This document shows positions 19,162-42,155 of a stretch of DNA of 64,000 nucleotides, piece after piece (positions within the stretch are counted from its first letter, which is position 1; every line of letters starts with the position of its first letter). The stretch is from Macrolepiota albuminosa. Its lineage: Eukaryota; Basidiomycota; Agaricomycetes; Agaricales; Agaricaceae. The notes below the pieces were generated by a model that saw only the letters and a list, made by a program, of their open reading frames with translations, did not search any database and was not told where the DNA came from. A program made the position numbers and the translations under genes. The stretch covers positions 2,133,042 to 2,197,041 of the forward strand of contig JAMWFC010000055.1 of NCBI GenBank assembly GCA_027475525.1. The letters run 5' to 3'.

Positions 19162-21430
19162 ATGGCCTATTGGGGGCCGCAAAAGGGTGATCAGAGCCGG
19201 CAAAGCTCTAGTGGAGGGGGGAGACCCCCGAATATACAAAACTGTGATTATCCCGATCAGTACCAGAGGCAGCCGCCCTATCCAGCGGTAAGCCAGTTTC
19301 AGTCAGCAGGCGTGGCTTATCCAGGCCATGACAAGCCGCTTCCATACCAGACACCCCTCCACTCGCAAGAGATGGAGGTCAATGACAAAGGGCGCTATGG
19401 GCGCCCAGAGGACAGCACGCACCGCGAGCGCTACTATCAGGAACCGTCGGCACGTCCAGCTGCGTCGCATCCGACGTATGCGGGTGTGGTGACGGGGCCG
19501 CCATCAGTACCATGGGCGCATCGGCCCGTGGAAGAGTCATATGGGGAGCCTGCGCCACAAGCGCAGAGTTTAGCAGTGTCAGACATGCTGTTGGGCAGAC
19601 TGGAAGCAGCAGGACAGCCAGTCCCTGCAACTGTGTCCTTCCTGCAGGACAGTTTGGCCGTGATGGTAATGGAGGGATTGCTCGACCAGATTGAGCTGAT
19701 GAAGAGGCAGCACGTCGCAGCGCTAAAACAGATCGAACGCGCGTCTAAGCGCAAAATCGCCACGGGTGAGGAACCGACTGCTGAGGTCAAGAGGGCTAAA
19801 TATCAGCCCAGTTGACCGGTCGACCCTCCACAGGCAAGGATGCCATCAGAAGTGCAATTCACATGCCATGAGCAGCCGGCTCAGCCTGTGGCTTCGTCAT
19901 CACGGTTGCCCGAGTCGGGCCCTCAGGCCTCCTCAGAGTTGCTGACTGCAGTCAGTGAACCCTTGGCAGGTCTGTCCCTGGGCCAGCAGGAAACCGCATC
20001 ATCCTGGGCCCCACCTAGGGGGCCCAAAACCATCGCTGTGGCACCAAAAGTGCCCGTTACCATCACTCCTCGTGCTGAGCCTGGAAGGAGAACTCTGGCG
20101 CGAAATGCGCCTGCCCCTCCGGTGGCTCAGCCACAACTAGAATCATCCACCCCGACCAAGGTCAGGGCCGTCTCATCAGCACCGCGGCCACAAGCCGCCG
20201 CTCGATGCCTCTAAATTGGAGGTGATAATATTTCCTGCTGGCATTCCCGCACGAGCAGGAGAAGTCCAGATGCTGTTTATGCTGCCGGTGTTTGTACCGG
20301 CCCCACCAGAACACTACCCTGTGGTCGTATTGACCCCAGACCCCCGCACGCCAGAGCAGTATGATGGTCTGGTGGCGACCTTGAGAGGGAAGACCATGCC
20401 TGAAAAAGGCAAAACACCAGTACCATCCCTGTCTGATGAGAGCGACTATGGAGAGTCGAGTTCGGAGCAGGAGGAGGACGGGAAGGAGGGGGAATTGGCC
20501 ACGGACCGATTCCAACGAGTATCACGCAATAAGCACATTGCAAAGAAGAAGGCAATTCGCGCCAAGGAGCTAAAGGCCCAGAAGTATAGGACCAAGGATG
20601 AATTCTCAGGGAGGATCCCCAATGGCTTGGGGGTGAAGGTGTGGGGTCCGCTTGATATCGAGTGAATGAACTCGTGCTTTAGAGGAGCACTCAGCCATTG
20701 CACCTATTATTCGTATGCTACGAATACGGTGCTGATAGGAGCTGACGCCAATAGAGCGGCGTCATATGAGTATTCCTCTGGCCATTCTGCCCACATCCTG
20801 GGTACGATTGTGTATAAGCACGCCCCACGTGGTCTTCTCCGCACTCTGCTAGAGCTGGACCGGCTCTATAAGTACTACGTAAATGTGCACGTCCCGCATC
20901 GTGACAGAATCATCGCATACATGTTGATCACAGAGCTCCAGATGTTTGCGCAGCGGACAGTTGAGGCTCTGCATGATCGAACCATGCAGCTCCTAATAAA
21001 GGAGCCTAAGTACCAGGAACTCATCAACCCGATGCAGGGCCCTGATGACCTCGCTCTTGTCGAGTGATGACACATTCCAGGGCGCTTCTTGCGCACAAAA
21101 GAAGATGGCACCACAGCATTGCACGTAATGCGCGCTCAGGATCTAGCCACACCGTTTGACCTCGACCAGCTGGCGCAGTACGCGCTGGTCTTTGGCTGAC
21201 CTGGGTTGGAAAATACCTATCAAGGTATCGCCGTGGATCATGCCTATCGCATGCACTGGTGGACCCTCTTTGGTTTCACCTTATGTCGAGCTCTGTGCGC
21301 TAACAGCGCAGCCAAGCCGGTGATCATGCGGCGCATGACCCTTGTCGTGGCCCGTCCAGGGCTTTATTGAGAGGCGATTGCCTTGTATGACGCCATGTTC
21401 CCCAAGCAGCCATTTGAGCCCCAACGTGGG
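19162..21430 (+). pseudogene. ORF3 of gypsy B, 5' part
   Basis: Begins MAYWGPQKGDQS like copies A and C. Stops at 19813, 20663 and 21065 are TGA where copy C has CGA, and one inserted base near 20160 shifts the frame. It is cut at 21430 by the insertion of copy C; the remainder lies at 32887-33567. See copy C for a description of the protein. Confidence 0.88.
21426..21430. repeat. Left target-site duplication of gypsy C
   Basis: GTGGG, identical to 32882-32886. The uninterrupted sequence CAACGTGGGCCGCAGCTC can be read in copy C itself at 31630-31647. Confidence 0.95.
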
Positions 21431-21606
21431 TGTAACGGGGTCATCCGTATTACCATCAGCATCAACGACGCTATAATCAATTAGTAGAGTATTACATAAG
21501 CCAACGTCTTGTTTTCGCACTAAGTACTAGTCAAATCCGATATTGCGGTCTGATTTAGCACTGTGTGAAATACACAGATAGTTCTAACTAGTAACCCCAG
21601 GTTATA
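21431..21606 (+). repeat. 5' LTR of gypsy C
   Basis: 176 bp, TGTAACGGGG...GGTTATA; the partner at 32706-32881 ends GGTTACA. The two bases before the last differ by a transition. What follows the LTR (T7 then AAATC) is not a classical tRNA primer site beginning TGG. Confidence 0.95.
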
Positions 21607-21717
21607 TTTTTTTAAATCTTCTGCTATCGGCTTTAGACTCTAGGCTTGTTACCGACTAGGCAACTCTCATCAAAACCTCTCGATTCTCTGTTGGCATCAC
21701 GCTGAAAACGTGCTTCC

Positions 21718-24700
21718 ATGACTGGCTCTCTTGATCCGGATCCTCCGTTCTCAGCTGCAGACGCAGGTGACTTACCTGTGCTTCAGGCTGTGAAGACGCA
21801 ATCTGCGTCAGCATACCAACCCCCGCCAAAGCGGGACGAAAAGACCCCTCGCGATGTCAGCGCGAGCTATGGAATGCCTGGTGGGCTATCCGTATCACGG
21901 ATGATGTCCATAGTACGACCTGGTGGAAAACCAGGAGATAGATCTGCGGTCTCAGGAGTGTCGCTGCCAGCGAGCCAAATGCCCTCACTGATGTATCCGG
22001 TATTGCCCGAGAGCTCTTCAGCTCCCTCGGAGGGTCAACCGGACGTTACCCAGTACTCGGAAATGGTACAAGGCAGCGCGTTTGCACATAGCACCCCATT
22101 CCGGACTGCACCTACGGAACGGCATTTGGAATATGTGGCCAATGCTGCCACTGAACCGGGACCGTCGTCGTTGACGACACAAGTACCGAAGCAAGGACCA
22201 GCAATAGTGGTCAGTAGGGAAGACGACAATGTCGTAAGGTTGGACAAGGCGTTAACAATGCCTGGAAGTCCAGAGTTGCACCGACGAGCCGGCAAACAGC
22301 CGCAAGTGAGGCATGACGGCCTCAGGAGAGTTATGGACTTAGAGTCCGAGTTGGAGTCCTCAGATGATGAGGAAAGCAAAAGGTCGCATTCGACCTTATC
22401 TATCCAGTTGCAGCTAGTATTGGACCGATATCCGGCAGTCGTGAAGGAATCGACGCGAAAGCGTCTTCAGCTTTATGTAGTGAAGCACTTACAGTTGCTG
22501 GCGGCTAGGAGCCACGATGTACCCCGTGCAGATTCGAGTGAATATATCAAATTGTTTGTGCGCATCTTCGAACTCGAAGTAGTGGAATACCTTAAGCGCA
22601 AAGCGGCGCGAGGGTCAGCAGTCTCAACGGCTACTCCAGCCGACTCCGTAGAATGTGAGATGAGTGTGCGCAGACGAGCGCCACTAATCGTGGAAGCGAT
22701 GGAATTGCTCAATGCGCCTCGTCAGGCTGATGAGTCTCAGCAAGACTACATTCGGCGCCAGAACGCCGCAAACCGTCAACGCATTGTTAGCGGAGTGCCT
22801 CAGCAGGCATTGTCTGAGGTGGAGACTGTAACGACGACTCCGGCAGAGCCAGAGGCAGCACTTGCAGTGCAGGAGGTTAAGACACCTCGTAAGCAAGTTA
22901 CAATCAAGGAAGAGGTGGACAAAGTCCACATTCTTGAGGAGCGAACGCGACCACGACGCGTAGTGCGACGCGTCCACCTAGTGGACAACTGGAATGAACG
23001 CGTCAATTACCAAAGGATACGCAACCAGGACTTGCGCGATCATGGTGAGTCGTTCATTGACGACCAGGGGGTAGTCTTTGAAGGGCGTGAGGGCGTAACG
23101 CCTGTCGATGACATGCGGCGACAATTCACAGCTCGGACTGCTGAACCGGACAGAGATCCGGGTGGTAGTGACGACAGTAGTGGTCACTACGAACGGAGGG
23201 AGCCAAATCATCGCAATCACGACGGTGGAGATCGTGATCATAGGAATGACGATCAGGACGATAATAATCGTTGTGACAGGGGCAGGCAGGCTGGTGGATT
23301 ACCAGCAGAGCAACAAATGAGGCAACAGCCCACCGCACGGCCGGAAAGAGTGGTCAATGAGCACCTGTTTCGCAGTCCTCGGGCATTTTTGATGCCCGCA
23401 CCTCATGATTTGCGTGAAACTACGCCGGGAATGAATGAAGCGGTCAGGATCCATATGGATCATATGCATGACCGCCTCACTCGTCTGGTGGATGACTCCC
23501 TTGGAGTCAGATTTAAGTTCCCTGCTGGGGTAAGCCCCCGTAAATCCGATGGTAAGCACATACGTGCGTACGCTGGAGGACATAGGTTCTCGCAACTGGA
23601 GGACTGGGCCATGGACGTGTGCTACCACCTCGCAGCCTGCTGCTATGGTGGAGACGACATGGACCAGGAAAGGATATTCGTGCTACACGAATTTATGGAA
23701 GGAGAGGCTCGGAATTGGTTCCGTCGCCATGTTCTCCACATTAATCGCAACAAATCGCACTGGACATTTAAAGAGGTCCTGATAGGACTGTATAATCGGT
23801 TCGTTAACGCTGCTACGATGCAGGAAGCTCGCGATGCCTTTAGAAAGGCAGTGTATGACGCTAAGACTGGCGTCCAGACCTTTTATGATGACCTGGTGGG
23901 TCATGCACAGAATATGGCCGTCTATCCAGACGAATACACTATCCGCGAGACATTCCTGGACGGAATACCCGCAGACATGAGGAGAGCGTTGATACGCGAC
24001 GATAACTTGTCTCCAGAGGTCAATACTGTGACTGAATTTTTGGCGTATGCCATCCGTTATGAGCAGTCGACACGGACTGCAAACCATTATGAGCAGCGTA
24101 GTTCACGCCGAGGACCAGTGAACCGTCAGGCAGTGAAGGTGGGAACCTTCCTAGCCAAGCGGACGGAGATGGAGAACAATCGCAATCCGCGATTTGTGGT
24201 TCGCAAGACAATTCCTGGAGGCCAACGGCCTCGATCGAAACCTGCTGGACAATTGCCAGCGAAGGACAGTCGACCTGTTTCGGGTCAGAATCAAGTAGCA
24301 CCAAGAGGAGTAGTGGCGCCTGCAGCGCGTATGGCGGGTAAAACTGCTGGAGTTCCAGGAGTGGGCCAGAGAAGGCCTGCCGGGGACCCCTCAGCGTGCT
24401 ACAATTGTGGCAGGAGCGGGCACTTTGCTAAGGAGTGTCCCGCCCCTCCTAAGGCACACATCCGAGCGGCCCATACGGCTGCGGCACCGAGCGATGTCGT
24501 CAGTGACGACGAGGACGATGAAATCGTCGAGGAAACCGAGGAGGAGCCGCAAGCAGAGGCTGACGGGTCGGAAGTGGATGACGCTGAGAGCGTCCAGATT
24601 GATGGCGATGAATACGTCGCAGTGGATGTGTACGACAGCGACTACTATGCTCGTGATGACGAGGAGGAACACCTGTTTGCACTGACGGAGTGCCGTGGAG

Positions 24701-25218
24701 ATCAGCGCGTCCGAATGAGACGTGTAACCCTGCAGAAGGCAACTAATAAGTTGCAGCGGCCACACTATACTCCTGAAGAGAAGGAGTGCCTGGTCACGTA
24801 TGTTGATGTCAACGGACATCCGGCATGGACGTTGTGGGACTCCGGAAGTACTACTACAGGCATTACGCCCCAGTTTGCTCACGTCAACGCGATTCGCGTT
24901 CATGAACTGGAGGAGCCCTTGATGCTCCAGCTGGGGACTGTGGGGAGTCACGCTATGGTGCAGTTTGGTGCGGAGGTGAGAATAAAGACGTCAGGAACGT
25001 CGACGAAGGAATACGTGGATATAGCAAATTTTGATCGCTATGACATGATTATCGGTACGCCGTTCATGCGTAAGAACAAGGTGTCGCTGGATTTCATGAA
25101 CGACATGGTCGTTGTGAATGGTACGCCGCTGAAGGCGGAGAAAGTGGTGTTGAACGATACAGATGGTCGTTTGAGGCGCTATCGCGCAACTGAGAAGCGG
25201 CGTGATGAGCGCAACTGA
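21718..25218 (+). CDS. Gag-aspartic protease polyprotein of gypsy C
   Basis: 1166 aa from the ATG at 21718, the first after the LTR and conserved in copy B. The N-terminal 600 residues are acidic and low in complexity. The Gag core is around residues 615-785 (from YAGGHRFSQLEDWAM), followed by a basic linker and a CCHC zinc knuckle CYNCGRSGHFAKEC near residue 894 that would bind genomic RNA. The protease lies around 1020-1125, with the catalytic triplet in WDSGSTTTGIT (about 1040) and the flap-side YDMIIGTPFM (about 1108). It builds the virus-like particle and cleaves itself and Pol. It ends at TGA 25216-25218 inside a duplicated 25-bp unit; in copies A and B the stop is in frame with pol. 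Confidence 0.93.
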   Translation: MTGSLDPDPPFSAADAGDLPVLQAVKTQSASAYQPPPKRDEKTPRDVSASYGMPGGLSVSRMMSIVRPGGKPGDRSAVSGVSLPASQMPSLMYPVLPESSSAPSEGQPDVTQYSEMVQGSAFAHSTPFRTAPTERHLEYVANAATEPGPSSLTTQVPKQGPAIVVSREDDNVVRLDKALTMPGSPELHRRAGKQPQVRHDGLRRVMDLESELESSDDEESKRSHSTLSIQLQLVLDRYPAVVKESTRKRLQLYVVKHLQLLAARSHDVPRADSSEYIKLFVRIFELEVVEYLKRKAARGSAVSTATPADSVECEMSVRRRAPLIVEAMELLNAPRQADESQQDYIRRQNAANRQRIVSGVPQQALSEVETVTTTPAEPEAALAVQEVKTPRKQVTIKEEVDKVHILEERTRPRRVVRRVHLVDNWNERVNYQRIRNQDLRDHGESFIDDQGVVFEGREGVTPVDDMRRQFTARTAEPDRDPGGSDDSSGHYERREPNHRNHDGGDRDHRNDDQDDNNRCDRGRQAGGLPAEQQMRQQPTARPERVVNEHLFRSPRAFLMPAPHDLRETTPGMNEAVRIHMDHMHDRLTRLVDDSLGVRFKFPAGVSPRKSDGKHIRAYAGGHRFSQLEDWAMDVCYHLAACCYGGDDMDQERIFVLHEFMEGEARNWFRRHVLHINRNKSHWTFKEVLIGLYNRFVNAATMQEARDAFRKAVYDAKTGVQTFYDDLVGHAQNMAVYPDEYTIRETFLDGIPADMRRALIRDDNLSPEVNTVTEFLAYAIRYEQSTRTANHYEQRSSRRGPVNRQAVKVGTFLAKRTEMENNRNPRFVVRKTIPGGQRPRSKPAGQLPAKDSRPVSGQNQVAPRGVVAPAARMAGKTAGVPGVGQRRPAGDPSACYNCGRSGHFAKECPAPPKAHIRAAHTAAAPSDVVSDDEDDEIVEETEEEPQAEADGSEVDDAESVQIDGDEYVAVDVYDSDYYARDDEEEHLFALTECRGDQRVRMRRVTLQKATNKLQRPHYTPEEKECLVTYVDVNGHPAWTLWDSGSTTTGITPQFAHVNAIRVHELEEPLMLQLGTVGSHAMVQFGAEVRIKTSGTSTKEYVDIANFDRYDMIIGTPFMRKNKVSLDFMNDMVVVNGTPLKAEKVVLNDTDGRLRRYRATEKRRDERN
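23044..23531 (+). promoter_or_regulatory. Candidate 5' splice donors in gag
   Basis: Two good donor-like sites are kept in all copies: ATG|GTGAGT at 23045 (GTAAGT in copy A) and GGG|GTAAGC at 23530 (GTAAGT in copies A and B). Either could pair with the acceptor before ORF3. They also encode Gag residues, so conservation alone does not prove splicing. Confidence 0.3.
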
Positions 25219-25233
25219 GAAGCGGCGTGATGA
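25184..25233 (+). repeat. 25-bp tandem duplication at the gag-pol junction of copy C
   Basis: Two perfect 25-bp copies (GCGCAACTGAGAAGCGGCGT...) at 25184-25208 and 25209-25233, then a partial third. Copies A and B have one. Because 25 is not a multiple of three, it moves pol out of the gag frame and puts TGA GAA and TGA TGA in the way. Confidence 0.9.
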
Positions 25234-25240
25234 GCGCAAC

Positions 25241-25247
25241 TGACTAG
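25241..25247 (+). promoter_or_regulatory. UGA-CUAG context before Pol, copy C
   Basis: TGA followed by CTAG, in the pol frame. In copy B the same signal is in frame with both gag and pol; here the upstream duplication disconnects it from gag. Confidence 0.55.
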
Positions 25248-28200
25248 ATGGTCGCAGGAGAGTGACTGTTCAGGAGGTGGAAGACGAACAGGCCCCACCG
25301 AAAAGCCTGCCGGCTGATTCGCCGGCTATACTGATGACTGAGGAAGAGTTTCAAGGAACTCTGAAGAAGGGGAAGCACCCGGATGTGACTGGGTGTACCA
25401 ATGGAAAGCCTAAACAGGCTGTGCAGTGCAAGAATGAGCGTAGTAAACGCATGGTGGAGTCGCTGGAATGCCAGCCGACTAGCTCTCGAGTAAAGGTGGA
25501 GGATCTCGTCAAGGACGAGGGATACAGTACGATGGGAACTGTGGGTAGCACTAGGTTGCTAATGGATCGACCAGTGCCTCGGCCAGGAGTGCAATGGGCG
25601 TATGACCCACGAATGCCACAGGAGTGGAACGAGCTGGTAGCGTCAATGGTGACGCACGCTATGGGAAGTGGGCAAGCGACCCAGACGGGAGAAGTGTACC
25701 GTTATGCACGAGAGGACGAGATATCCGAAACATTGGATATCATATGTGATGGATTCTCGCTGAAGGCGAGGAGTGTGCAGTCGTCGGCGAGTACGACGAG
25801 GAAACAACCGGTTGTAAGGTTGAATCCGGGAGACCTCACAGAGGAGCACGTACGTGCCTTACGGGAGCGATTTGAACCAAAGGTTCAACCGCGTATAGCA
25901 CGCGTAGCCAAAGGAAAAGGCAAGGCTTTGAGCCTTACAGAGGAGGATATTCCTCGATTGCACCAGCAATGGCAACGGGAGTTCGCTGATATTGTCAATG
26001 GAACGAAGGAGGAGCTTCCTCCGTGGCGGGAGGTTAATCATGAGATCAACCTCATTGACGATAACAAGCAGTACAAGTATCATTTGCCTCGCTGCCCACG
26101 AGCACTTCAGGATCAACTTCGTGAAAAGACGAATAGATACATAAACGCGAAGTGGTGGGAACCACGACCAGCGGTGCAAGCTGCACCATTGCTTTGTATC
26201 CCCAAGAAGGATGGAACGTTGCGGACGGCATTGGATGCGCGACAGCACAATGATAATACCGTCAAGGATGTAACACCTCTTCCAGATCAGGAAGTGATAC
26301 GAGAAGATGTTGCGACAGCGAAGTATCGGTCGAAAATCGACCTCACAGACGCGTACGAGCAGGTTTGCATCCGCGAAGAGGACATACCGAAGACACTGTT
26401 CTCGTCCCTGATGGGGACGTTCGTGAGTAACATCATGCAGATTGGTGATTGTAATGCACCGGCAACATTTCAGAGGTTAATGACCTCAATCTTCCGAGAT
26501 GTAATCGGGAAGTTTATGCACGTCTATTTAGACGATATATTCATATTTTCTGACTCCATTGAGGAGCATGAGCAGCACCTACGAGTCGTATTTGAACGAC
26601 TACGGAAGGCCAGCCTCTATCTCAAATGGAAGAAGTGCGAGTTGTATGCAACGAGTATAGATTGTCTCGGTCACGTCATTGACGAGAAGGGCATTCATCC
26701 TGATACGGATAAGCTCGACCAAATCCGAGAGTGGCGTACTCCACGCACATATAATGATATCCAACGATTTGTCGGACTGGTGAACTATATTGGCAATTTC
26801 TTGCCAGACGTCACTGCATACACTGGGCCACTTATGGCCATGACCCAGAATGGGTCACCGTTTCATTGGAGACCGCTGCATCAGCGGTGTTTTGAGATGA
26901 TTAAGCGCATATGCGCGAAAACGCCGGTCATCCGGCCAATTGACCCACGCATCGACGAGCCCATCTGGCTCATTTGCGATGCATCGAAGACTGGGGTTGG
27001 GGCCATGTTTGGCCAGGGTAAAACATGGCAGACTTGCCGACCAGCGGGATTTATGTCCCGTAAATTCACTGCTGCTCAGCAGAATTATGCTGTGCACGAG
27101 TTAGAAACACTCGCAATACTGGAAGCCCTCCTAAAGTGGGAGGATAAACTGATGGGATATAAGATCCATATTATCATGGATCACAAAGCACTAGAGTTCT
27201 TCAAGACTCAGGTGCACCTGTCCCCGCGACAACGTCGCTGGATCGACTACATGTCGCGGTACCAGTTCGACATCACCTATGTAAAAGGTGAATTGAACAA
27301 AGTGGCGGATTGCCTATCTCGATATTTCGAGAGTGATACTCGAGATGACGTCCATGACGCGCATGACTATGTCCAGGCGGACAAACGTATTGACCCAGAG
27401 GGCGAGGATTTGCCTCTGCATCGATTCCATGAAATCAGGGAACATAGGGTCGAGTTACACGCCATGCGAGCACAGGAAACACGTCGCAGTAAGCGACTGC
27501 AGGAGCAGCGAGAGACTCGCGATATCGAAGCTCAGGTGCTAGTGGACCATGAGGCCCCTCAGCCAAGGGAAGAGACGAGGCAAGAGGCGCCTATGAGAGG
27601 TACTGATATGACGCTCCAGCAAGCGCTGGAGTCACAGGACCATATGCCTGCACCAGATGACTTAGGCAATGCGCAATTCTGCACACGTATCCAGCAAGGA
27701 TACAAGGATGATAATCTCTTTGTAGAGATTCTGAACAATATCCAAGCGCATCCGCGCTTCAGGACGGAGCAGCAGCTTGTCTACCTTACCAGACCCACGG
27801 GGTCCAAAGTCATCTGCATTCCCCGGGAGAGGTCGTTGATTACGACTATCCTGGACCAGGCCCATAGAGTAGTGGGCCACTTCGGAACTCAGAAAACGCT
27901 GGATTATGTGCGACGCTGGTACTGGTGGCCGCAAATGGCCAAAGAGACGAGCCAGTTCTGCTCGACATGCGAGCTATGTCAACAGTCGAAAGTGTCGACT
28001 TTGAAGCCACCGGGAAAGCTGCATTTGCTACCCATCCCTGTCAAACCTTGGGATTCAATTGGGATGGACTTTATAGGTCCGTTCCCCGAGTCGAAAGGCT
28101 TTAACTACCTCTGGGTAGTGATCTGCAGAATGACCAGTATGGTCCATCTCATTCCGGTGAGAACCACCATGACCGCGTCAGACTTGTCGTGGATCTATCT

Positions 28201-29146
28201 CAAGGAGATAGTACGTCTCCATGGACTGCCCAGTTCGATCGTGAGCGATCGAGATGCTAAGTTTACTTCCAAATGGTGGAAGGAGTTGCACAAGCTGCTA
28301 GGAGCAAAGTTGCTCATGTCGACATCGTTTCATCCGCAAACGGATGGTCAAACGGAACGTGCGAATAGAAATATCACGCAAATCTTGCGCGCGTTCGTAC
28401 GTCCTGATCAGAAGGACTGGGTGGATAGATGTCCACTCGTGGAATTCGCGATAAACGCGAGTATATCGGAAACCACAGGGTACTCACCCTTTGAACTCAA
28501 CAATGGCTACATGCCATCCATGATTCGTGAACTTCGTACGGACGAAGTTATTCATGTGGGAGTCAAGCAGTTTGCGCGCAACGCGCTAAGGAATCTGGCA
28601 GATGCCCATGATGCGATTATAGAATTGCGCGTCTGGCAAACCAAACATGCGAATAATCGCAGACGCGAGGAACCAGAAATCGAGAAAGGGAACCTAGTGT
28701 ACCTTTCTACGAAGAACCTAAACCTGCTGAAAGGCAGAGCGAGTAAGTTGTGTCCAAAGTGGATTGGACCGTATAAGGTCCTTGAAGCGGAGCCGAGCAC
28801 GTCTAACTACGTGCTGGAACTACCCCATGCGCTGCAAGCGCAAAGGATAGTCCCCAAATTTCATGTGTCGCTATTGCGACCGTATATGGCCAGTAGTGAT
28901 GCGCTCTTTCCTAATCGAGCAACTCCGGAGCCGTATGATTTTGGAACTGGTAATGACCAGGAGTGGTTCGTAGATGACCTGATAGGTCATCGTTGGACAA
29001 GGGGAAGCCTCGAATTCGAGGTAAGGTGGAGCTTAGGTGATACTACCTGGGAACCGCTAGTAAACTGCAAAGACCTTGCAGCGATGGATAGGTATCTAGA
29101 GCTGCAGGGCGTGAAACACCCTCAGCAGCTAGCAAAACGCGCGTAA
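25244..29146 (+). CDS. Pol polyprotein of gypsy C (RT, RNase H, integrase, chromodomain)
   Basis: Open for 1300 codons after the TGA at 25241. RT: YLDDIFIFS near residue 427 is the catalytic box. RNase H: CDAS (about 578), ELETLAILEAL and MDHKAL carry its acidic residues. Integrase: zinc finger H-x4-H (HRVVGH, about 27862) and C-x2-C (CSTCELC), then the D-D-E core with GMDFIGPF (28061), VSDRDAKF (28241) and TDGQTERAN (28340). The C-terminal chromodomain (about 28970-29105, EWFVDDLIGHRW...FEVRW...TWEP) would direct integration to marked chromatin. There is no ATG at the start; the first in-frame ATG is about 25334. Expression is probably as a readthrough fusion to Gag, which the duplication in this copy should prevent. 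Confidence 0.93.
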   Translation, partial: LDGRRRVTVQEVEDEQAPPKSLPADSPAILMTEEEFQGTLKKGKHPDVTGCTNGKPKQAVQCKNERSKRMVESLECQPTSSRVKVEDLVKDEGYSTMGTVGSTRLLMDRPVPRPGVQWAYDPRMPQEWNELVASMVTHAMGSGQATQTGEVYRYAREDEISETLDIICDGFSLKARSVQSSASTTRKQPVVRLNPGDLTEEHVRALRERFEPKVQPRIARVAKGKGKALSLTEEDIPRLHQQWQREFADIVNGTKEELPPWREVNHEINLIDDNKQYKYHLPRCPRALQDQLREKTNRYINAKWWEPRPAVQAAPLLCIPKKDGTLRTALDARQHNDNTVKDVTPLPDQEVIREDVATAKYRSKIDLTDAYEQVCIREEDIPKTLFSSLMGTFVSNIMQIGDCNAPATFQRLMTSIFRDVIGKFMHVYLDDIFIFSDSIEEHEQHLRVVFERLRKASLYLKWKKCELYATSIDCLGHVIDEKGIHPDTDKLDQIREWRTPRTYNDIQRFVGLVNYIGNFLPDVTAYTGPLMAMTQNGSPFHWRPLHQRCFEMIKRICAKTPVIRPIDPRIDEPIWLICDASKTGVGAMFGQGKTWQTCRPAGFMSRKFTAAQQNYAVHELETLAILEALLKWEDKLMGYKIHIIMDHKALEFFKTQVHLSPRQRRWIDYMSRYQFDITYVKGELNKVADCLSRYFESDTRDDVHDAHDYVQADKRIDPEGEDLPLHRFHEIREHRVELHAMRAQETRRSKRLQEQRETRDIEAQVLVDHEAPQPREETRQEAPMRGTDMTLQQALESQDHMPAPDDLGNAQFCTRIQQGYKDDNLFVEILNNIQAHPRFRTEQQLVYLTRPTGSKVICIPRERSLITTILDQAHRVVGHFGTQKTLDYVRRWYWWPQMAKETSQFCSTCELCQQSKVSTLKPPGKLHLLPIPVKPWDSIGMDFIGPFPESKGFNYLWVVICRMTSMVHLIPVRTTMTASDLSWIYLKEIVRLHGLPSSIVSDRDAKFTSKWWKELHKLLGAKLLMSTSFHPQTDGQTERANRNITQILRAFVRPDQKDWVDRCPLVEFAINASISETTGYSPFELNNGYMPSMIRELRTDEVIHVGVKQFARNALRNLADAHDAIIELRVWQTKHANNRRREEPEIEKGNLVYLSTKNLNLLKGRASKLCPKWIGPYKVLEAEPSTSNYVLELPHALQAQRIVPKFHVSLLRPYMASSDALFPNRATPEPYDFGTGNDQEWFVDDLIGHRWTRGSLEFEVRWSLGDTTWEPLVNCKDLAAMDRYLELQGVKHPQQLAKRA

Positions 29147-29166
29147 TGCGCGTGTGGTGGTGGAAT

Positions 29167-29181
29167 GTGGACGAAGTCCAC
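29167..29181 (+). other. Conserved hairpin after pol, copy C
   Basis: GTGGAC-GAA-GTCCAC, 21 bp beyond the pol stop; unchanged in copies A and B. Confidence 0.6.
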
Positions 29182-29317
29182 TTTGATTGCCGGTAACTAA
29201 CCGGGTGGCCACTAATTGTGGCTGTGATTGTAACTGTTACGTGATTATGATCGCCGACGCGGCGCCGGGTGGCATGTGTTTGTGGTTGTTTACACCACTG
29301 GCGGAGTTGGGAGATTG

Positions 29318-29337
29318 TTTTTTCTTTCTTTCCCCAG
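29318..29337 (+). promoter_or_regulatory. Candidate 3' splice site upstream of ORF3, copy C
   Basis: T/C-rich tract TTTTTTCTTTCTTTCCCCAG ending 33 bp before the ORF3 ATG at 29371. Homologous tracts with a terminal CAG are at 19114-19138 and 42100-42122. Fits a subgenomic spliced mRNA for ORF3. Confidence 0.55.
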
Positions 29338-29370
29338 TCCCAATACACGTAGTCTACGTGTCGCTTTAGA

Positions 29371-32319
29371 ATGGCCTATTGGGGGCCGCAAAAGGGTGAT
29401 CAGAGCCGGCAAGGCTCTAGTGGAGGGGGGAGACCCCCGAATATACAGACGTCATCCCAGTTTCCCCAGTTTCAGAGGCAGCCGCCATATCCGGCGGCGA
29501 GTCAGTTGCAGTCAGCAGGCGTGGCCTATCCGGGCCGCGAGGAGCCGCTCCCCTACCAAACACCCCTCCACTCGCAAGAGATGGAGATCGATGATGATGG
29601 GCGCTATGGGCGCCCGGAGGATAGCTTGCGTCGAGAACGGTACTATCAGGAACCGTCCTCACGCTCGTCTGCGTCGTATCCGACGTATGCGGGTGTGGTG
29701 ACGGGGCCGCCGTCAGTTCCATGGGCTCATCGGCCCGCAGCAGAATCGTATGAGGAGCCTGCGCCACAAGCGCAGAGTGTAGCTGGGTCAGATGTGTTGT
29801 TGGGCAGACTGGAAGCAGCGGGACAGCCAGTCCCTGCAACTGCGTCCTTTCTGCAGGACAGTTTGGCCGTAATGGTAATGGAGGGACTGCTCGATCAGAT
29901 CGAGCTGATGAAGAGGCAGCGCGTCGCAGCGCTGGAGCAGATCGACCGCGCGTCTAAGCGCAAAATCGCCACGAGTGAGGAATCGACCGCTGAGGTCAAG
30001 AGGGCGAGATATCAGCCCAGTCGACCGGTCGCTCCTCCACAGGCAAGGATGCCGTCGGAAGCGCAATTCGCGCGCCATGAGCAGCCTCCTCAGCCCGTGG
30101 CTTCGTCATCGCGGCTACCCGAGTCGGGCCCGCAGGCCTCGTCAGAGTCGCTGGCTGCCGTCAGTGAACCCTTGGCAGGTCTGTCCTTGGGTCAGCGGGA
30201 ACCCGCATCATCTCGGGCCCCACCTAGGGGGTCCAAACCCGTCGCTGTGGTGCCAAGAGCGCCCGTTACTGTTACTCCTCGCGCTGGGCCTGGAGGGAAT
30301 ACTCTGGCGCGAAATGCGCCTGCCCCTCCGGTGGCTCAGCCACAACCAGAACCGTCCGCCCTGACCAAGTCGGGGCCGTCTCGTCAGCGTCGCGGCTGCA
30401 AGCCGCCCCTCGATGCCTCCAAATTGGAGGTTATACTCTTTCCTGCTGGCATTCCCGCATGAGCGGGAGAAGTCCAGATGTTGTTCATGTTGCCGGTGTT
30501 TGTACCGGCCCCTCCAGCAAAGTATCCCGTGGTCGTCTTGACCCCAGACCCCCGTACGCCGGAGCAGTATGATGGTCTGGTGGCGACCTCGAGGGGGAAG
30601 ACTAGGCCTGATAAAGGCAAAAACCCGGTACCATCCCTGTCCGACGAGAGCGACTATGGAGAGTCGAGCTCGGAGCAGGAGGAGGACGGGGAGGAGGGGG
30701 AATCGGCCGCAGACCGATTCCAACGAGTAGCGCGCAATAAGCGCATTGCAAAGAAGAAGGCGATTCACGCCAAGGAACTAAAGGCCCAGAAGTCGAGGGC
30801 CGAGGACGAATGTTCGGGGAGGATCCCCGATGGCTTGGGGGTGAAGGTGTGGGGTCCGCTCGATGTCGAGCGAATGAACTCGTGCTTTAGAGGAGCACTC
30901 AGCCACTGCACCTATTATTCGTATGCCACGAATACGGTGTTGATGGGAGCTGACGCCAATAGAGCGGCGTCATATGAATATTCCTCTGGCCATCCTGCCC
31001 ACATCCCGGGCATGATTGTATACAAGCATGCCCCACGCGGTCTTCCCCGCACCCCTCTAGAGCTGGACCGGCTCTACAAGTATTATGCTAATGTGCACGT
31101 CCCGCGGCGCGACAGAATTGTCGCCTATATGTTGATCACAGAGCTCCAGATGTTCGCGCAGCGAACAGTGGAGGCTCTGCATGATCGAACCATGCAGCTC
31201 CTGATGAAGGAGCCTCAGTATCAAGAACTTGTCAACCCGATGCAGGGCCCTGATGACCTCGCTCTTGTCGAGCGACAACACATTCCGGGGCGCTTTTTGC
31301 GCACGAAAGACGATGGCACCACGGCGTTGCGCGTAATGCGTGCTCAGGATCCAGCCACACCGTTCGACCTTGACCAACTAGCGCAGTACGCGCTGGTCTT
31401 TGGCCGACCTGGGCTGGAGAATACCTATCAAGGTATTGCCGTGGATCATGCCTACCGCATGCACTGGCGGACCCTCTTTGGGTTCGCCTTATGTCGAGCA
31501 TTGTGCGCTAACAGCGCAGCCAAGCCGGTGATTGTACGGCGCATGACCCTTGTCGTGGCCCGACCAGGGCTGTATCGAGAGGCGATTGCCTCGTATGACG
31601 CCATGTTCCCCGAGCAGCCATTTGAGCCCCAACGTGGGCCGCAGCTCGAAATTCACCAAGTTCACGTGCCCGACGACCATGCACGGAACTTCTCCGACGA
31701 CGACGCGTTACGCGTCCTTTTACACAACCGGATTCCGCTGGAATGGGTGGACCACGCGTACACGTACGGCGTAGTCTTCCTGGAACAGCAGTTCCATTCC
31801 CCCACGATGTCTATGGACATCTTTAAGCAGGTCGACGACGAGCGCATGGAGCGCCTCTCCAAGTATGGCACCCCCACCGCAATCCCGCAATGGGATGGAT
31901 GGCGGGAGATGACTGAAGACGATCACTATCGTCTGATGTTCAAGCACCACAAGGAGAGCAAGCTCCCGGAAAATCCTGAGGCCAATGGCCTCTATTACTT
32001 GATTGGCATGGACCCGAATCGGGTCAACCTCCTAAAACGCTCGGCAGCGCATGACCTGCCCGCAGCGGACATGGACCCAGGCCGGGTCAATCTCCTGCCA
32101 CGCACGGCAGAGCAGGGTACGCTTACCACCACCGCTTCAGCGATTAACGTCGCACTAACAGAGCCTATGGTGGTAGACACGCCTGCAGCCGAGGGGCCTA
32201 TAACCCCACCGAGGACGGAATCGGCGCCTCCCCCTCCCGCGATTAACGTCGCACTGGAGGAGGAGGCAATGGTGACTGAGACGGGCGCTGTTGCGGGAGC
32301 ATCGTCATCCGGGTCCTAG
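29371..32319 (+). pseudogene. ORF3 of gypsy C: unrecognised protein in env position (one nonsense codon)
   Basis: Reading frame of 983 codons from MAYWGPQKGDQ to the TAG at 32317, broken once by TGA at 30460-30462 where copy B has CGA. Residues 1-160 are Gly/Pro/Tyr-rich. About 170-200 form a charged helix that may coil (LLDQIELMKRQRVAALEQ). A Pro/Ala-rich linker follows, then an acidic patch (about 423-443, DESDYGESSSEQEEDGEEGE) and a Lys/Arg-rich stretch (about 455-480) resembling a nuclear signal. Residues 495-900 look globular (VWGPLDVERMNSCFRGALSH...). I see no signal peptide or membrane segment, so it does not look like Env. I recognise no family. It is kept in all three copies, so it is part of the element; its role is unknown. 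Confidence 0.85.
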
Positions 32320-32676
32320 ACCCTTGTATACAAAATTTTGTATGTACCTCTGAGTACTTAACTCGAGCCATTTCAGCTGATACGCACTTCAGAGTCGCGT
32401 GTAGATACAGCGGACCCAGAGGAGGGGTCACTCTTTTTGTTTTTCTATACTTTTATTATATACACCGTTTGCCTCTACTGCTGGCGTCCCCTGCGCCTGT
32501 GTCTGATAAGGACTGCTGTCTCTTGTGTCCGGCCGACACATCCTCAGTGCGCATGAGTACTAACGCCTTCCAGCCACGCAACACGCGTGCATTCATCCGT
32601 TGTTGCACTACCGTGCATCGTTCATCGTTGTTGCACTACCATGCATCTTTCATCTCTTTCTACCTCCCTTTCTCAA

Positions 32677-32692
32677 GACTGAGTATTCGGTC
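32677..32692 (+). other. Hairpin next to the polypurine tract, copy C
   Basis: GACTGA-GTAT-TCGGTC, with GACCGA in copy B making a full 6-bp stem (33901-33916; copy A 45342-45357). It stands immediately before CATTGGGGGGTA, the likely plus-strand primer. Confidence 0.5.
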
Positions 32693-32694
32693 TC

Positions 32695-32705
32695 ATTGGG
32701 GGGTA
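32695..32705 (+). other. Polypurine tract of gypsy C
   Basis: ATTGGGGGGTA directly before the 3' LTR, identical before the 3' LTRs of B (ends 33929) and A (ends 45370). It is short, but in the right place for plus-strand priming. Confidence 0.6.
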
Positions 32706-32881
32706 TGTAACGGGGTCATCCGTATTACCATCAGCGTCAACGACGCTATAATCAATTAGTAGAGTATTACGTAAGCCAACGTCTTGTTTTCGCACTAAGT
32801 ACTAGTCAAATCCAATATTGCGGTCTGATTTAGCACTGTGTGAAATACACAGATAGTTCTAACTAGTAACCCCAGGTTACA
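32706..32881 (+). repeat. 3' LTR of gypsy C
   Basis: 176 bp, TGTAACGGGG...GGTTACA, followed by the GTGGG duplication. Confidence 0.95.
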
Positions 32882-33567
32882 GTGGGCCGCAGCTCAAAAT
32901 TCACCAAGTTCATGTGCCCGACGACCATGCACAGAACTTCTCTGACAATGACGCGTTACGCGTCCTTCTACACAACCGGATCCCGCTGGAATGGGTGGAC
33001 CATGCATACACATACGGTGTAGTCTTCCTGGAACAGCAGTTCCATTTCCCCACGATGTCAATGGACATCTTCAAACAGGTCAATGACGAGTGCATGGAGT
33101 GCCTCTCCAAGTATGGCACCCCTGCTGCAATCCCGCAATGGGATGGATGGTGGGAGATGACTGAAGACAATCACTATTGTCTTATGTTCAAGCATCACAA
33201 GGAGAGCAAGCTCCCGGAAAACCCTGAGGCCAACAGCCTCTATTATTTGATTGACATGGACCCGAATTGGGTCAACCTTCTAAAACGCACAGCAGCGCAT
33301 GACCTGCCAACAGCGGACATGGACCCAGGCCGGGTCAATCTCCTGTCACGCATGGCAGAGCAGGGTATGCTCACCACCACAGCTTCAGCGATTAACGTCG
33401 CACTAACAGAGCCTATGGTGGTAGACACACCTGCAGTCGAGGGGCCTATAACCCCACCGAGGATGGAATTGGCGCCTCCCCCTCCTGTGATTAACGTCGC
33501 ACTGAAGGAGGAGTCAATGGTGACTGAGACGGGCATGGTTGCAGGAGCATCATCATCTGGGTCCTAG
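32882..33567 (+). pseudogene. ORF3 of gypsy B, 3' part
   Basis: After the GTGGG duplication (32882-32886) the ORF3 frame of copy B resumes and is open to TAG at 33565, matching the last 225 or so residues of ORF3 in copy C (for example SMDIFKQV and ALTEPMVVDTPA). Several Arg codons are Trp or Cys here, as expected from CpG decay. Confidence 0.9.
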
Positions 33568-33929
33568 ACCCATGTTAATACTTTATTGTGTATGTACTTC
33601 CGAGTATTTCACTCGAACCATTTCAGCTGATATGCACTCTAGAGTCGCGTGTAGATACAGTGGACCCAGAGGAGGGGTCATTTTTTTTTGTTTTTCTTAT
33701 TTGTTTATACATAAACATTTTTTATCTACTGCTAGCGCAACCTGCGCCCTTGTCTGATAAGGACTGCATTCTATTGTGTCCAGACGACACATCTATACTG
33801 CGCAAGAGTGCTAATGCCTTGCAGCCATGCCATACGCGTGTATTCATCTGTTGTTTGCACTATTGTGCATCCTTCATCTTGCTTTACCTCCCTTTCTAAA
33901 GACCGAGTATTCGGTCTCATTGGGGGGTA

Positions 33930-34115
33930 TGTAACGGAGTCATCCGTGTTATCATTCGTGTTACAAGCGTCAATGACGCTATAATCGTTTAATAGAGTAT
34001 TACATAAGACAACATCTTGTTTTCACTCTAAGTACTAGTCAAATCCGATACTGCGGTCTGATTTAGCACTTGTGTGATACACACAAGATAGTTCTAACCC
34101 GTAACTCTGGTTACA
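33930..34115 (+). repeat. 3' LTR of gypsy B
   Basis: 186 bp, TGTAACGGAG...GGTTACA, pairs with 11301-11486; followed by CACAG. Confidence 0.95.
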
Positions 34116-36972: not shown

Positions 36973-37092
36973 ATATCAGTCTAATATTCTGTCTGTGGTC
37001 AAAAATCTCAACAGTTTGATGTCAATGCACTAATATCAGTCTAATATTCTGTCTGTGGTCAAAAATCTCAACAGTTTGATGTCAATGCACTA
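36973..37092. repeat. Perfect 60-bp tandem duplication
   Basis: 36973-37032 and 37033-37092 are identical (ATATCAGTCTAATATTCTGT...). It lies right at the point where the transposase gene is cut by the arm. Confidence 0.93.
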
Positions 37093-37164
37093 GTGGGAGT
37101 CAAACCTACCTACTGCAAGATACAAGGAATACCAATTGAGAATATTCCACTACACCACTGACGC
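37087..37164 (-). other. tRNA-like unit R3
   Basis: 78 nt on the minus strand, counterpart of the L2/L3 units, with TGGTGTAGTGG and a GGTTTGACTCC B box. Confidence 0.5.
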
Positions 37165-37245
37165 TTAGTATATACTGCTACTGTGTAAATAAATATCAGT
37201 CTACTATTCTGTGTGTGGTCAAAAATTCTTGAGTTCGATGTCAAT

Positions 37246-37316
37246 GCACTAGCAGGAGTCAAATCCACCTACTGCAAGATACACCAATTGAGAATATTCC
37301 ACTACACTGTGGATGC
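37246..37316 (-). other. tRNA-like unit R2 (7-nt deletion)
   Basis: Shorter (71 nt) version of the same unit; the part between the boxes has lost several bases. B box GGATTTGACTCC. Confidence 0.45.
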
Positions 37317-37519
37317 TTACTGGACACTGCTATAATGTAAATAAATATCAGTCTAATATTGTCAATTCAATACAGATGAACCAGTTGCAGTAAATTCTTG
37401 GATCCGTCCATGTACAGAATACTACTTCAGCGGACCCCTTCCACCATTTGTCAATTTACTACAAGTAAAAATTGATAACACTATCCATTCTAATTCTGTA
37501 CAATCCTGACTTGTAGTAA

Positions 37520-37598
37520 GCGCCTGTGGTACAATGGAATATTGATACATTGATATTTCATATTGTGTGCAAGAGGTGGGTTTGACTCCCACTGGTGC
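37520..37598 (+). other. tRNA-like unit R1
   Basis: 79 nt, GCGCCTGTGGTACAATGG...GTGGGTTTGACTCCCACTGGTGC. T arm perfect; acceptor ends GCGCCTG/CTGGTGC pair at six of seven positions including G-U. Confidence 0.55.
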
Positions 37599-37961
37599 AC
37601 ACTATATAATAGCGGCAGGCTGCTGATGTCCGCTAGCATCATATATTTGATCTGTTCCAAAACTCCAGAGATTTCTGCAGTGGCATAAAGTGGATGACTT
37701 TGCGCATCTGTTTATTCCACTGCACATGACAGTGTCACATGCACTGGAATAATCACATGCACAAATTCCTCCATCCTATACCCGCTTCAATAATTTCTAG
37801 AGTTTTGAATTAATTGTTATTTACTACACAGTATGATAAAGTTGTAATTTTATGGTGTCTTTTTATACTGCTGCATTCCCTTCCACCCTCTGTCAATTTA
37901 CTACAAGTAAAAATTGATAACACTATCCATTCAAATTCTGTACAATACTGACTTTTGTTAA

Positions 37962-38040
37962 GCACCTGTAGTCAAATGGAATATTGATATATTCATATTT
38001 CATATCGTGCACAAGAGGCAGGTTCGACTCTCACTAGTGC
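37962..38040 (+). other. tRNA-like unit R1b
   Basis: Diverged tandem copy of the 37520 unit, 442 bp downstream. B box GGTTCGACTCT close to consensus. Confidence 0.45.
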
Positions 38041-38315
38041 ATATTATATAATAGCAGCAGGCTGGCTGACATCTGCTAGCATCATTAATGTGATCCATTT
38101 AAAATTCCAGAGATTTCTGCAGTGGCATGGATTGGTCATCTTTGAGCATCTGTTCATTCCAGTACATCCCATGTACTGGAATCCTCATGTGCGCAGATTC
38201 CGCCATCCTATACCTGCTTCAGTAATTTCTAGAATTTTGAACGGATCAACTTAATAATGCTAGCAAGTAATGAATGAATATTTTATTAGGGCTTACAGGC
38301 CCTATTAAAATATTT

Positions 38316-38398
38316 GTCACTAGCAGGAGTTGAACCCGCCTTTTGTGCAAAAATATGAAATATCAACCTATTAATATTCCAATGTCACCATTAGACCC
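38316..38398 (-). other. tRNA-like unit R0b
   Basis: Minus-strand unit with TCTAATGGTGACATTGG and a GGGTTCAACTCC B box; the most diverged of the set. Confidence 0.4.
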
Positions 38399-39055
38399 CA
38401 TTAAGGTGGAGTAGTAAAACCCGCTGCTGTACACAGTATTGAATATCAATAAATGAATATTCCACTGAACAACTGGGACTGGTTGCACCGCTGATGTCAG
38501 CTGGGTCACATGCCAACATCCGCTACTGTCTGCTGGCTTGCCAGCAGACAGCAGACACTCATGCACCCACTTCTGCCCTTCCCCCTCTTTCTCCCCCATG
38601 GTATCCTCTCCACTCCCCACACTACCTCACATGCCACCCCCGTCCACCACATGCACCCCGCTTTCCTCCTTACCCCTGACCTGACGTCCAATGTCTGCTA
38701 CATCCACTAGTACACCCACATTCCTCCCCTTCCCCCTTCTCTCTTTCTCCCCACCCCCATCCCTCCTCTGCCACCCCCCATGCTCTCCAAGACGCCACCC
38801 CATGCAGCAGACGCCCACGCACCCCCTTTCCTTCCCTCCCGCCCTGATGCTGGGCAATGCCAGACAATGCCAGACAATGCTGGGGGTTGCCGATGGATAC
38901 CAGCAGATATCCGGTGGATGCTGATGGATGCCAATGGATGCCAGCAGGTCACGATGGCTGCTGACAAACTCCGACGGATGCCAGCTGATGGCAGATGATA
39001 CCAACACCCCTTTCAAGCCACAAAACCTCTTTTGGGAGGTATGCCACCCCCCTTC

Positions 39056-39532
39056 TGTCAGGCGACTAGTCTCCAGACCACGTCCAAACCTATTCCGAGC
39101 TTAGTCTGATGATACGCCTATTCCTAGCAGATCTGACCAGCCACTCGGCCCACCCTTTCCCCTTCCGTCTCTTAGTAGTTAGCCTTAATGAGTCATATGC
39201 ATGGACCTTACTCAGCATTGATTATTGTTAGCCATACTCCATTACATACCGGGGCCTGCTTAGTAAACAGTATTAGTAATAGCACAGCCACTGATGTAGT
39301 ATATATAGGCAGCCTGTGGGATAGAATATCCCCAGGCTGAACAATAGCAGTGTTCTTCCGGCCTATACACTGAACCGACTGTAAGCTCTCTAGCGACGTC
39401 CGACCGCTCAGTTAGCCTTGCTGGTCCCTTGCCTGACTCTCGCCTGCTTCTATGCCTGCTCGACTCTCGCCCGCCACCTGTGCTTGCTAGTCTGTGGAAG
39501 AATTTCCGCAGACATTAAGTGTTGCCCTTACA
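39056..39532 (+). mobile_element. Solo LTR, 477 bp, in KDZ right arm
   Basis: TGTCAGGCGAC...GCCCTTACA, flanked by perfect CCTTC duplications (39051-39055, 39533-39537). The left arm is continuous at this place (near 7080). A TATATATA box at 39300 and a downstream C/T-rich region suggest plus orientation. Confidence 0.88.
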
Positions 39533-39631
39533 CCTTCCACCTCAAAATATCTATACGGAGACCTGCAGGAATGTAGATGGGCGTCCATTCATTGTGTTAT
39601 CTGACCTTTGACTCTATCCATTGGTAACAGA

Positions 39632-39709
39632 CCTGTGGTGCAACGGTTAAATGTGTGCTCCGTTGCTGGAGGCCTGCCCAAGGCTGGGGGTTCGATTCCC
39701 CCCCACAGG
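39632..39709 (+). other. tRNA-like unit (best preserved), KDZ right arm
   Basis: 78 nt. Acceptor CCTGTGG/CCACAGG pairs perfectly, the T arm GGGGG-TTCGATT-CCCCC is canonical, and an extra arm GCCT/AGGC suggests a class II (Ser/Leu-like) origin. The anticodon arm has CTCC/GGAG around a six-base loop, one short of normal, and the D arm pairs badly, so it is likely not a working tRNA. Confidence 0.6.
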
Positions 39710-40013
39710 CATATGATGGGCAAGACAATGTTTCTTTTTCTTTGGTCCAACCAGCCCCTGTGGAGCCACATAGGCCTCTGCAGATGTCCGCTGGTGCCCT
39801 GTGCAGGCCCGGGAGGGCCTGCGTAGGTTTGAGGGGGTTGACATAGGTCTGTGTAGATGTCTGGTGGTGGCTTGTGTAGGCCTGCGTAGGTCTGCAGGGC
39901 CCTTTTGTAGACATATGCTGGCATTGGAAGTGGGAAAAGGAGGGAAGGGGAGGCGTGCAGCCTTAAGTTATTGTGGGGAGGGAAGTGGGGAACTTTGAGG
40001 AGAGTTGATTCAT

Positions 40014-40531
40014 TGTAAGGGCGACCTCTAGACGCTGTGGCTCAGTCACACAGCTGGCAGAGGGAGATCCAAAGTGTATTAGAATATATACTGACAATAT
40101 CAAGGTAGCTACTCACCTGGCAGAGGGAGATCCAAAGAGAACAAGTCTGGGGATTCCCTATGCCAGGTTGGACGCTTCTGGGGCCTCTGAAGTGTGGGAA
40201 ACAACTGTACAGTACAACAAAACCTTAAAAACTCGAAAATTGACTAACCAAACAAGTGTGCAAACAAGGGAGGAAAACTCCGGACTTTAGAAGTCAGAAA
40301 GGCAAACTCCGGCTTATCTAAGCAGCCTGGAGCGGTGCTGAAGGGCCCACACTTGTCTGAGTGATAGCTAAAGAACCAGAGCACCTCAAAGATTGAGAAT
40401 AGTACTAACAGATAGTGTTGAAAAAGTAGTAACAGCAAAATGAGAGAATGATAGAAGAAATAAGGAAGTGAATGAAAGGAGAGTGAAGAAATAAAGAGTG
40501 AAAGAAGAAAGGAATGAGGAGTCCCCTGACA
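40014..40531. mobile_element. Solo LTR, 518 bp, in KDZ right arm
   Basis: TGTAAGGGCG...CCCCTGACA, flanked by perfect TTCAT duplications (40009-40013, 40532-40536). The left arm lacks it (junction near 6590). Its terminal sequences resemble those of the 39056-39532 LTR. Part of a related LTR occurs at 58764-58957. Confidence 0.87.
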
Positions 40532-40846
40532 TTCATGCCATGACGTCCGCCAATGGAGAAGGCTTTTACTCATGAACTGATGCCCGCTGGTGGCTGCTGA
40601 TGCACATTGACGTCCGCTAGTGTCCGCTGGCATCTGCCGGGCCTATGTGTGCATGTGTGCCCACCTTTTATTGATCCACTGGACCGTGTCATACAGCACA
40701 TTGTGATACATCTGCGGCTCTGTATTCTATGGCACTGTGGGCACTGCTCCGCTCCAGTGTAGCCGACTCTGCTGGACACGTATGGTACAGCACAAAGCAA
40801 GCTCCTGTACAACATATGACACGTACTATTGTGATGCCCTACCCTG

Positions 40847-41939: not shown

Positions 41940-41959
41940 CGCATGTGTGGTGGTGGAAT

Positions 41960-41974
41960 GTGGACGAAGTCCAC
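41960..41974 (+). other. Conserved hairpin after pol, copy A
   Basis: GTGGAC-GAA-GTCCAC, unchanged even in this highly mutated copy, including its internal CpG. Confidence 0.6.
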
Positions 41975-42122: not shown

Positions 42123-42155
42123 TCCCAATACACATAGCTGATGTGTCACTTCAAG

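Follow-up and report, generated by a model that had tools for sequence, protein, structure and literature searches.

A maintained third gene behind pol in a Ty3/Gypsy-type retrotransposon of Macrolepiota albuminosa

Introduction

Sense ORFs located between pol and the 3' LTR, which are referred to as aORF-3S or 'env-like', have been described in plant LTR retrotransposons (PMC7264820, in excerpt). The plant elements Retand, Grande, and RIRE2 have a long region between pol and the 3' LTR, and its conserved protein has been proposed to be a regulator; according to the excerpted text of PMC11963269, their ORFs are antisense and mostly encode TRP28 (PF04195). LTR retrotransposons of bdelloid rotifers likewise carry a third ORF behind pol, and many of these ORF3s are not Env. 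Where a function has been assigned, it is that of an esterase, an exonuclease, or a fusion protein (PMC5408684, in the passages on ORF3). With respect to fungal Gypsy elements, a figure legend in PMC2864245 lists, among the elements depicted, an 'add. ORF' of unknown function, which may or may not correspond to ORF3, and a survey of fungal LTR elements mentions no additional ORF in its accessible passages (PMC3248453).

Here we describe ORF3, a sense frame behind pol in an LTR element of the fungus Macrolepiota albuminosa, which was located in a stretch of 64,000 nucleotides (contig JAMWFC010000055.1), hereafter the window. ORF3 is similar to the plant aORF-3S in place, orientation, upkeep in many copies, and unsettled function. 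It differs from them in its fungal host and in lacking membrane spans by hydropathy, whereas some aORF-3S possess transmembrane spans; the comparison of their sequences was through Pfam only. Like Retand, Grande, and RIRE2, the element has a long region behind pol with a conserved protein, but ORF3 is in sense orientation and has no Pfam family. Domains of the kinds assigned to the bdelloid ORF3s were not found in it. No published description of the ORF3 protein was found in the open-licence part of the PMC literature.

Results

Three nested copies of the element

Self-comparison of the window revealed three nested copies of one LTR element family. Copy 2 (21431–32881, + strand), whose ends and flanks were read directly, is a complete nested element of 11.45 kb. 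It is flanked by the target-site duplication GTGGG (21426–21430 and 32882–32886) and has the termini TGTAAC..GTTACA. Its LTRs, at 21431–21606 (5', +) and 32706–32881 (3', +), match each other; they are 176 bp in length and 98.3% identical over 174 columns. Behind the 5' LTR (21605–21625) lies a T-run without the TGG that is expected at the start of the usual tRNA primer site, so that no such site is evident.

The first ORF of copy 2 (21718–25218, +) encodes gag and protease, with a zinc knuckle (PF00098, 2.9e-7) and RVP_2 (PF08284, 6.9e-9). The pol ORF (25262–29146, +) contains reverse transcriptase, RNase H, integrase, and a C-end chromodomain according to Pfam, and it matches Ty3 Gag-Pol in the PDB (1.6e-113). 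The chromodomain match (Chromo, PF00385) in the pol tail of copy 2 has an E value of 2.7e-4 and a score of 21.2 bits, which is below the curated cut-off of 25.1. The pol tails of all three families of the element, termed A (with copy 2), B, and C, match PF00385 with E values of 2.7e-4, 4.5e-4, and 5.1e-4 at 20–21 bits, under the same curated cut-off, and HP1 chromodomains are among the PDB matches to the pol tail from E 0.002. Judged from the LTR ends, target-site duplication, domain order, and C-end chromodomain, the carrier of ORF3 is classed as a Ty3/Gypsy chromovirus.

Copy 1 occupies 11301–21430 and 32882–34115, and its LTRs are 95.7% identical. The insertion point of copy 2 is within ORF3 of copy 1, which is thereby cut in two: by alignment, the decayed 5' part (19162–21430, +), counted from its start codon, ends at the insertion, and the 3' part (32887–33567, +) resumes past it. 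The older copy 3 is in parts (1–6310 and 40855–45543), and its decayed ORF3 was aligned to 42156–45026 (+), the end being approximate. Two inverted arms of about 3 kb (6326–9474 and 36973–40836), with pieces 84–92% identical, lie on either side of the nest that copies 1 and 2 form, and break into copy 3. The arms are another element, whose ORF at 6338–7018 has no Pfam match. Further to the right, a 1.2-kb direct duplication (50882–53658) is 74% identical, and its ORF at 51287–52117 (− strand) has no Pfam match either.

ORF3 in the window and in the genome

The initial annotation reported a 980-aa third ORF in the env position. A sense frame of 982 codons plus stop (29371–32319, +, by translation) does lie between pol, which ends at 29146, and the 3' LTR of copy 2, 386 nt away from the latter, but it is not a single uninterrupted ORF. 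Specifically, an internal TGA at 30460–30462, which is codon 364, leaves stretches of 363 and 618 codons, the second of which has 613 when counted from its first ATG. The accompanying claim that a long ORF is retained in every copy had to be given up: each of the three contains the homologous DNA, and in each of them ORF3 is broken. In-frame stops number six in ORF3 of copy 1, which also carries a 1-nt insertion, and five in that of copy 3, which has lost 13, 2, and 63 nt in three deletions; 10 of these 11 stops are TGA.

The decay bears a CpG signature, for which copy 2 or a young genome copy served as the reference. In copy 1, CpG has changed to TpG or CpA at 32–39% of sites and GpC has changed likewise at 10–15%; the corresponding values for copy 3 are 64–69% and 18–21%. 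The CpG loss in the old copies is as expected if the host methylates the element.

We then searched the same genome (100.1 Mb in 129 contigs) with the ORF3 core and obtained at least 95 matches (94 of the 1761 candidates were scored). An open ORF3 of at least 960 aa is present at 19 of the 30 genome loci examined, the window copy being counted in the 30. These loci are partly identical, with 23 distinct sequences among 26 compared. Near-identical copies are common, some places agree in score and length, and certain contig pairs may stem from duplicated assembly; the copies are therefore not independent. ORF3 is a real, maintained gene, though broken in this window.

Linkage to pol and relatives in other fungi

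For 78 of the 94 scored ORF3 cores, a family A pol end is found at most 5 kb upstream on the same strand, and in 74 of these 78 the distance from pol end to core is 1.52–1.73 kb. Conversely, at least 150 family A pol ends were listed, of which 78 are followed by a scored core and 72 are not. Three of the 72 were fetched; ORF3 begins at the usual place in all three, and in one of them an internal ORF3 deletion removes the core. At least 64 matches to the family B ORF3 were scored in the genome, and the family C ORF3 was found among 48 matches listed; the single copy fetched for each family lies behind a chromodomain pol. Behind ORF3 of family C (L043, L044), a run of about 20 A is located some 100 nt downstream.

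The pol sequences of the families are 68–69% identical, B and C each being 69.2% identical to copy 2. Their ORF3 proteins share only 34% (A–B), 40% (A–C), and 32% (B–C) identity over 768–867 columns. Hence, ORF3 has travelled with pol and has changed faster.

Three protein searches, each of which scored about 8000 candidates sharing most words, yielded at least 153 relatives of ORF3. Of the 153 listed, 119 are hypothetical proteins of Termitomyces, one is a hypothetical protein of Arthromyces matolae (Lyophyllaceae), and the remaining 33 are environmental sequences, several of which (820–955 aa) have the same order of parts. Judged from these relatives, the host is probably Termitomyces or closely related to it. 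None of the 153 relatives listed bears a functional name, and neither half of ORF3 matches a Pfam family. The earlier statement that no homologue is recognized holds for Pfam families and is otherwise wrong or incomplete, as homologues do exist in the form of hypothetical or unnamed proteins. The counter-scenario of the initial annotation, a host gene captured once and confined to this copy lineage, does not agree with three families, many copies, and relatives elsewhere.

Purifying selection on ORF3

In the dN/dS comparisons, changes outside CpG sites were counted and stop codons were skipped. Among the window copies, the ratio for the whole ORF3 is 0.25–0.33, values that are raised by decay after insertion. 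It varies along the frame: 0.36–0.59 for codons 1–140, 0.22–0.25 for codons 140–215, 0.49–0.54 for codons 215–363, 0.23–0.28 for codons 363–480, and 0.12–0.26 for the core (codons 480–900), the tail having 0.48–1.30, which is not distinguishable from 1. The same copies give 0.10–0.21 for pol and 0.17–0.24 for gag. When copy 2 is compared with five genome copies, dN/dS of the core falls to 0.03–0.08 (binomial p 4e-8 to 2e-12), which shows that ORF3 is coding. Pooling of 249 pairs from 24 distinct copies gave 0.20 for ORF3 and 0.07 for the core, figures that carry no p-value because the pairs are not independent.

ORF3 is under purifying selection, the core about as strongly as gag and pol. The possibility raised at the outset that constraint would not exceed neutral decay once CpG sites are masked is contradicted by the core values against the five genome copies. 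The proposal that ORF3 serves the element is borne out by purifying selection in combination with three families and many copies.

Anatomy of the ORF3 protein

The protein had been described as having a disordered N-half with acidic and basic patches and a globular C-half, and our inspection agrees with this description. The charged N-half looks disordered from its composition, which was read by eye, and the C-half was examined with AlphaFold2. Within the N-half, alignment delineates a conserved module at codons 140–215 (29788–30015, +), which appears helical by eye and ends in a basic pair resembling a bipartite NLS. The pair consists of two basic clusters with a spacer of 10–12 residues; Lys196 and Arg197 of the first cluster are invariant in 14 of 14 aligned proteins, while the stretch around this cluster varies. 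At the homologous site, 13 of 19 proteins, with members of families A, B, and C among them, have the strict bipartite pattern, and the other 6, one young A copy (L022) among them, lack it. In shuffled N-halves, the pattern occurs somewhere in 8–44%, so that taken by itself it says little. From these sequence features, ORF3 is likely to contain an NLS. Past the pair, an acidic patch with S-D-Y-G and then a basic patch are seen by eye.

The globular core spans approximately codons 480–900 (30808–32070, +), as delimited by AlphaFold2 and dN/dS. The model of codons 467–913 is mostly helical and has a mean pLDDT of 78.3 and a pTM of 0.76; codons 659–894 alone reach 84.7 and 0.84, respectively. Prediction gives a globular model of the C-half, and the structure and family searches provide it with no identity: no Pfam family was recognized, and comparison of the core model with solved structures and predicted viral folds returned no match of note. 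The modelled core has no recognized fold, which does not establish a new one. In the tail, short x-N-V-x-L motifs, noted by eye, are repeated in families A and C, and similar ones are found in environmental relatives.

Hydropathy was inspected with 19-residue Kyte-Doolittle windows, for which the usual cut-off for a membrane span is 1.6. The maximum is 1.06–1.42 in five full or nearly full ORF3 proteins, being 1.39 in A, 1.42 in B, and 1.34 in C (the C protein lacking the first ~40 residues), and the start of the A protein is hydrophilic by eye. These values bear out the view that ORF3, with neither signal peptide nor membrane span, is not a classical Env. The A, B, and C proteins contain 5, 4, and 3 cysteines, respectively, and one NxS/T site each, the C protein again without its first ~40 residues.

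Expression of ORF3

A pyrimidine tract followed by AG (29317–29337, +), located 33 nt before the ORF3 start codon, is a candidate 3' splice site by sequence. An acceptor-like tract is also present in copies 1 and 3, and one with at least six pyrimidines and AG is found at 29 of 30 genome loci, of which L005 and L008 share little beyond its end. Upstream in copy 2 there are 31 donor-like sites, none of which could be singled out. Since the acceptor-like tract is present in families A and C and absent from B, the families show no common mode of ORF3 expression. In-frame splicing from the chromodomain to ORF3 was considered and dropped; many A loci have an in-frame TAG before the ORF3 start, where others have TCG. 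Stop-codon readthrough from pol to ORF3 does not apply to A, in which the frames differ, and is possible in B. In the one family B copy (L055:3987-5101), the pol frame is open past its TAG, up to and into ORF3. The spacer between pol and ORF3 (29147–29370) holds several short palindromes. One of them, ACACGTAGTCTACGTGT, lies just before the ORF3 start; some copies keep it intact and the others almost intact.

Short hairpins in the coding sequences

Hairpins were defined as perfect inverted repeats with an arm of at least 6 and a loop of 3–8, and each coding sequence was compared with 200 codon shuffles of its own. The coding sequences at 21718–32316 and those of families B and C (L055, L056, L032, L043) hold three- to sevenfold more hairpins than the shuffles. 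In copy 2, gag has 30, pol 36, and ORF3 30, against shuffle averages of 5.5–5.7 and a maximum of 12. Family B has 39 in pol and 31 in ORF3, and family C has 18 and 14, against 4.4–5.9. With loops of 3–5 in copy 2, inverted repeats are enriched 8.7-fold and direct repeats of the same spacing 1.8-fold. Two copia ORFs have no hairpin excess (1 and 2 observed, 1.4 and 2.3 expected), and no significant excess was found in one RNA-polymerase host gene (6 vs 3.7, reached by 34 of 200 shuffles) or in the window to the right of the elements (46 vs 39.5, loops 3–12). Another element's stretch (6400–11200) has a slight excess (18 vs 11.8, z 1.7).

Folding of the sense RNA found no support as the explanation in two observations. 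In near-perfect stems (arm 8 with a single inner mismatch), A-C mismatches are as much in excess as G-U mismatches (21 vs 7.0 expected and 24 vs 7.8 expected, respectively), and the loops are A+T-rich with A not favoured over T (295 A, 240 T; p 0.90 vs outside). This absence of strand bias argues against selection for sense-RNA folding and leaves template switching at the DNA level, for which the excerpted PMC8604942 offers a comparison, or selection at the DNA level. Between copy 2 and L003, hairpin arms differ by 1.3% and 0.3% depending on direction and sequence outside by 4.0–4.1%, which is a modest sign only, as the hairpins were picked for being perfect. Because CpG decay confounds them, matched double changes seen between copies were set aside. 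Palindromes within coding sequence have been recorded in mitochondria of nematomorphs (PMC6649704, in excerpt). Coding sequence packed with hairpins is relevant to the shaping of silent sites by copying errors or by selection on the DNA, and may or may not be connected with ORF3.

Discussion

That ORF3 encodes a non-Env accessory protein is the best-supported statement on it. The fuller reading that we favour, with confidence that is about evenly balanced, is that ORF3 is a sense accessory gene of a chromodomain Ty3/Gypsy lineage in Lyophyllaceae-like and other hosts, and that its non-Env product is probably a nuclear factor aiding the element.

The competing reading that deserves most weight, while being unlikely, takes ORF3 for a cytoplasmic protein with a part in the structure or assembly of virus-like particles, either a second Gag-like protein or a scaffold. 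Its large size, charged patches, helical core, and place among structural genes would fit. Against this, the NLS-like pair is conserved, hhalign with the element's own Gag gave a probability of 0.1% (a weak test, the Gag side being one sequence), and HIV-type capsid chains appeared in Foldseek only at E 3.3–3.5, which is chance level. An Env-like protein that serves in membrane fusion or cell-to-cell passage is, in our view, a very unlikely identity for ORF3: hydropathy maxima are 1.34–1.42 in A, B, and C, cysteines are few, each protein has one NxS/T site, the A protein starts hydrophilic by eye, and neither Pfam nor the predicted viral folds provided a match. Such a protein would agree with the env position, the sense orientation, and the acceptor-like site before ORF3 in A and C.

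Uptake of host genes by LTR elements is known, and ORF3, whose origin is unsettled, might be a captured gene that the element carries as a passenger and does not need. As a passenger it is refuted by the selection signal, the core being constrained about as strongly as gag and pol. ORF3 is moreover present in three divergent families and many copies, and the 153 relatives listed include none with a functional name; we regard this reading as highly improbable. The 28–30 short perfect hairpins in ORF3 DNA, compared with about 5 in codon shuffles, could be taken to mean that the open frame is a by-product of nucleic-acid constraint and encodes no protein. This we hardly credit at all: the dN/dS values lie well under 1, and silent-site constraint would push them up rather than down. 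The core is also kept in relatives at 30–40% protein identity, and the conservation of amino acids between families tells against this reading as a complete account.

To return to the nuclear accessory factor, it corresponds to a product of some 980 aa that has no membrane span by hydropathy and comprises a seemingly disordered N-half, a helical module with the basic pair, the patches, a helical globular domain of about 400 residues, and a tail. It would be made as a separate protein, enter the nucleus, bind itself or partners via the helical module, and help the element there in trans. The likeliest role would be to oppose host silencing or otherwise to regulate transcription or RNA of the element; help with cDNA import or integration would be the next guess. 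The nuclear regulatory role is suggested by the NLS-like pair, the lack of membrane features, and the analogy to VANC-like factors. VANC of the VANDAL transposons is encoded by the element and counters silencing, as described in the excerpts of PMC10398659 and PMC5735166. It serves as a working analogy only, as VANDALs are DNA transposons of Arabidopsis and VANC is likened to ORF3 by description, not by sequence.

The CpG loss, being of the kind seen under host methylation, would provide a target for an anti-silencing factor. The heavy CpG decay also shows that, over long times, ORF3 fails to keep methylation away. A more far-reaching version, in which ORF3 represents a novel protein family, whose fold may be novel too, and acts against silencing in the nucleus, and in which the coding-sequence hairpins are a record of template switching or sites for ORF3, is one that we hold to be distinctly doubtful, less probable even than the particle protein.

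Genes behind pol are known in plant and animal LTR elements, with roles that are mostly open, and ORF3 is such a gene in a fungus, where an envelope is of little obvious use. Because many copies are open, three families can be set side by side, and the signal of selection is clean, the benefit that an element draws from a third, non-Env gene becomes testable within one genome.
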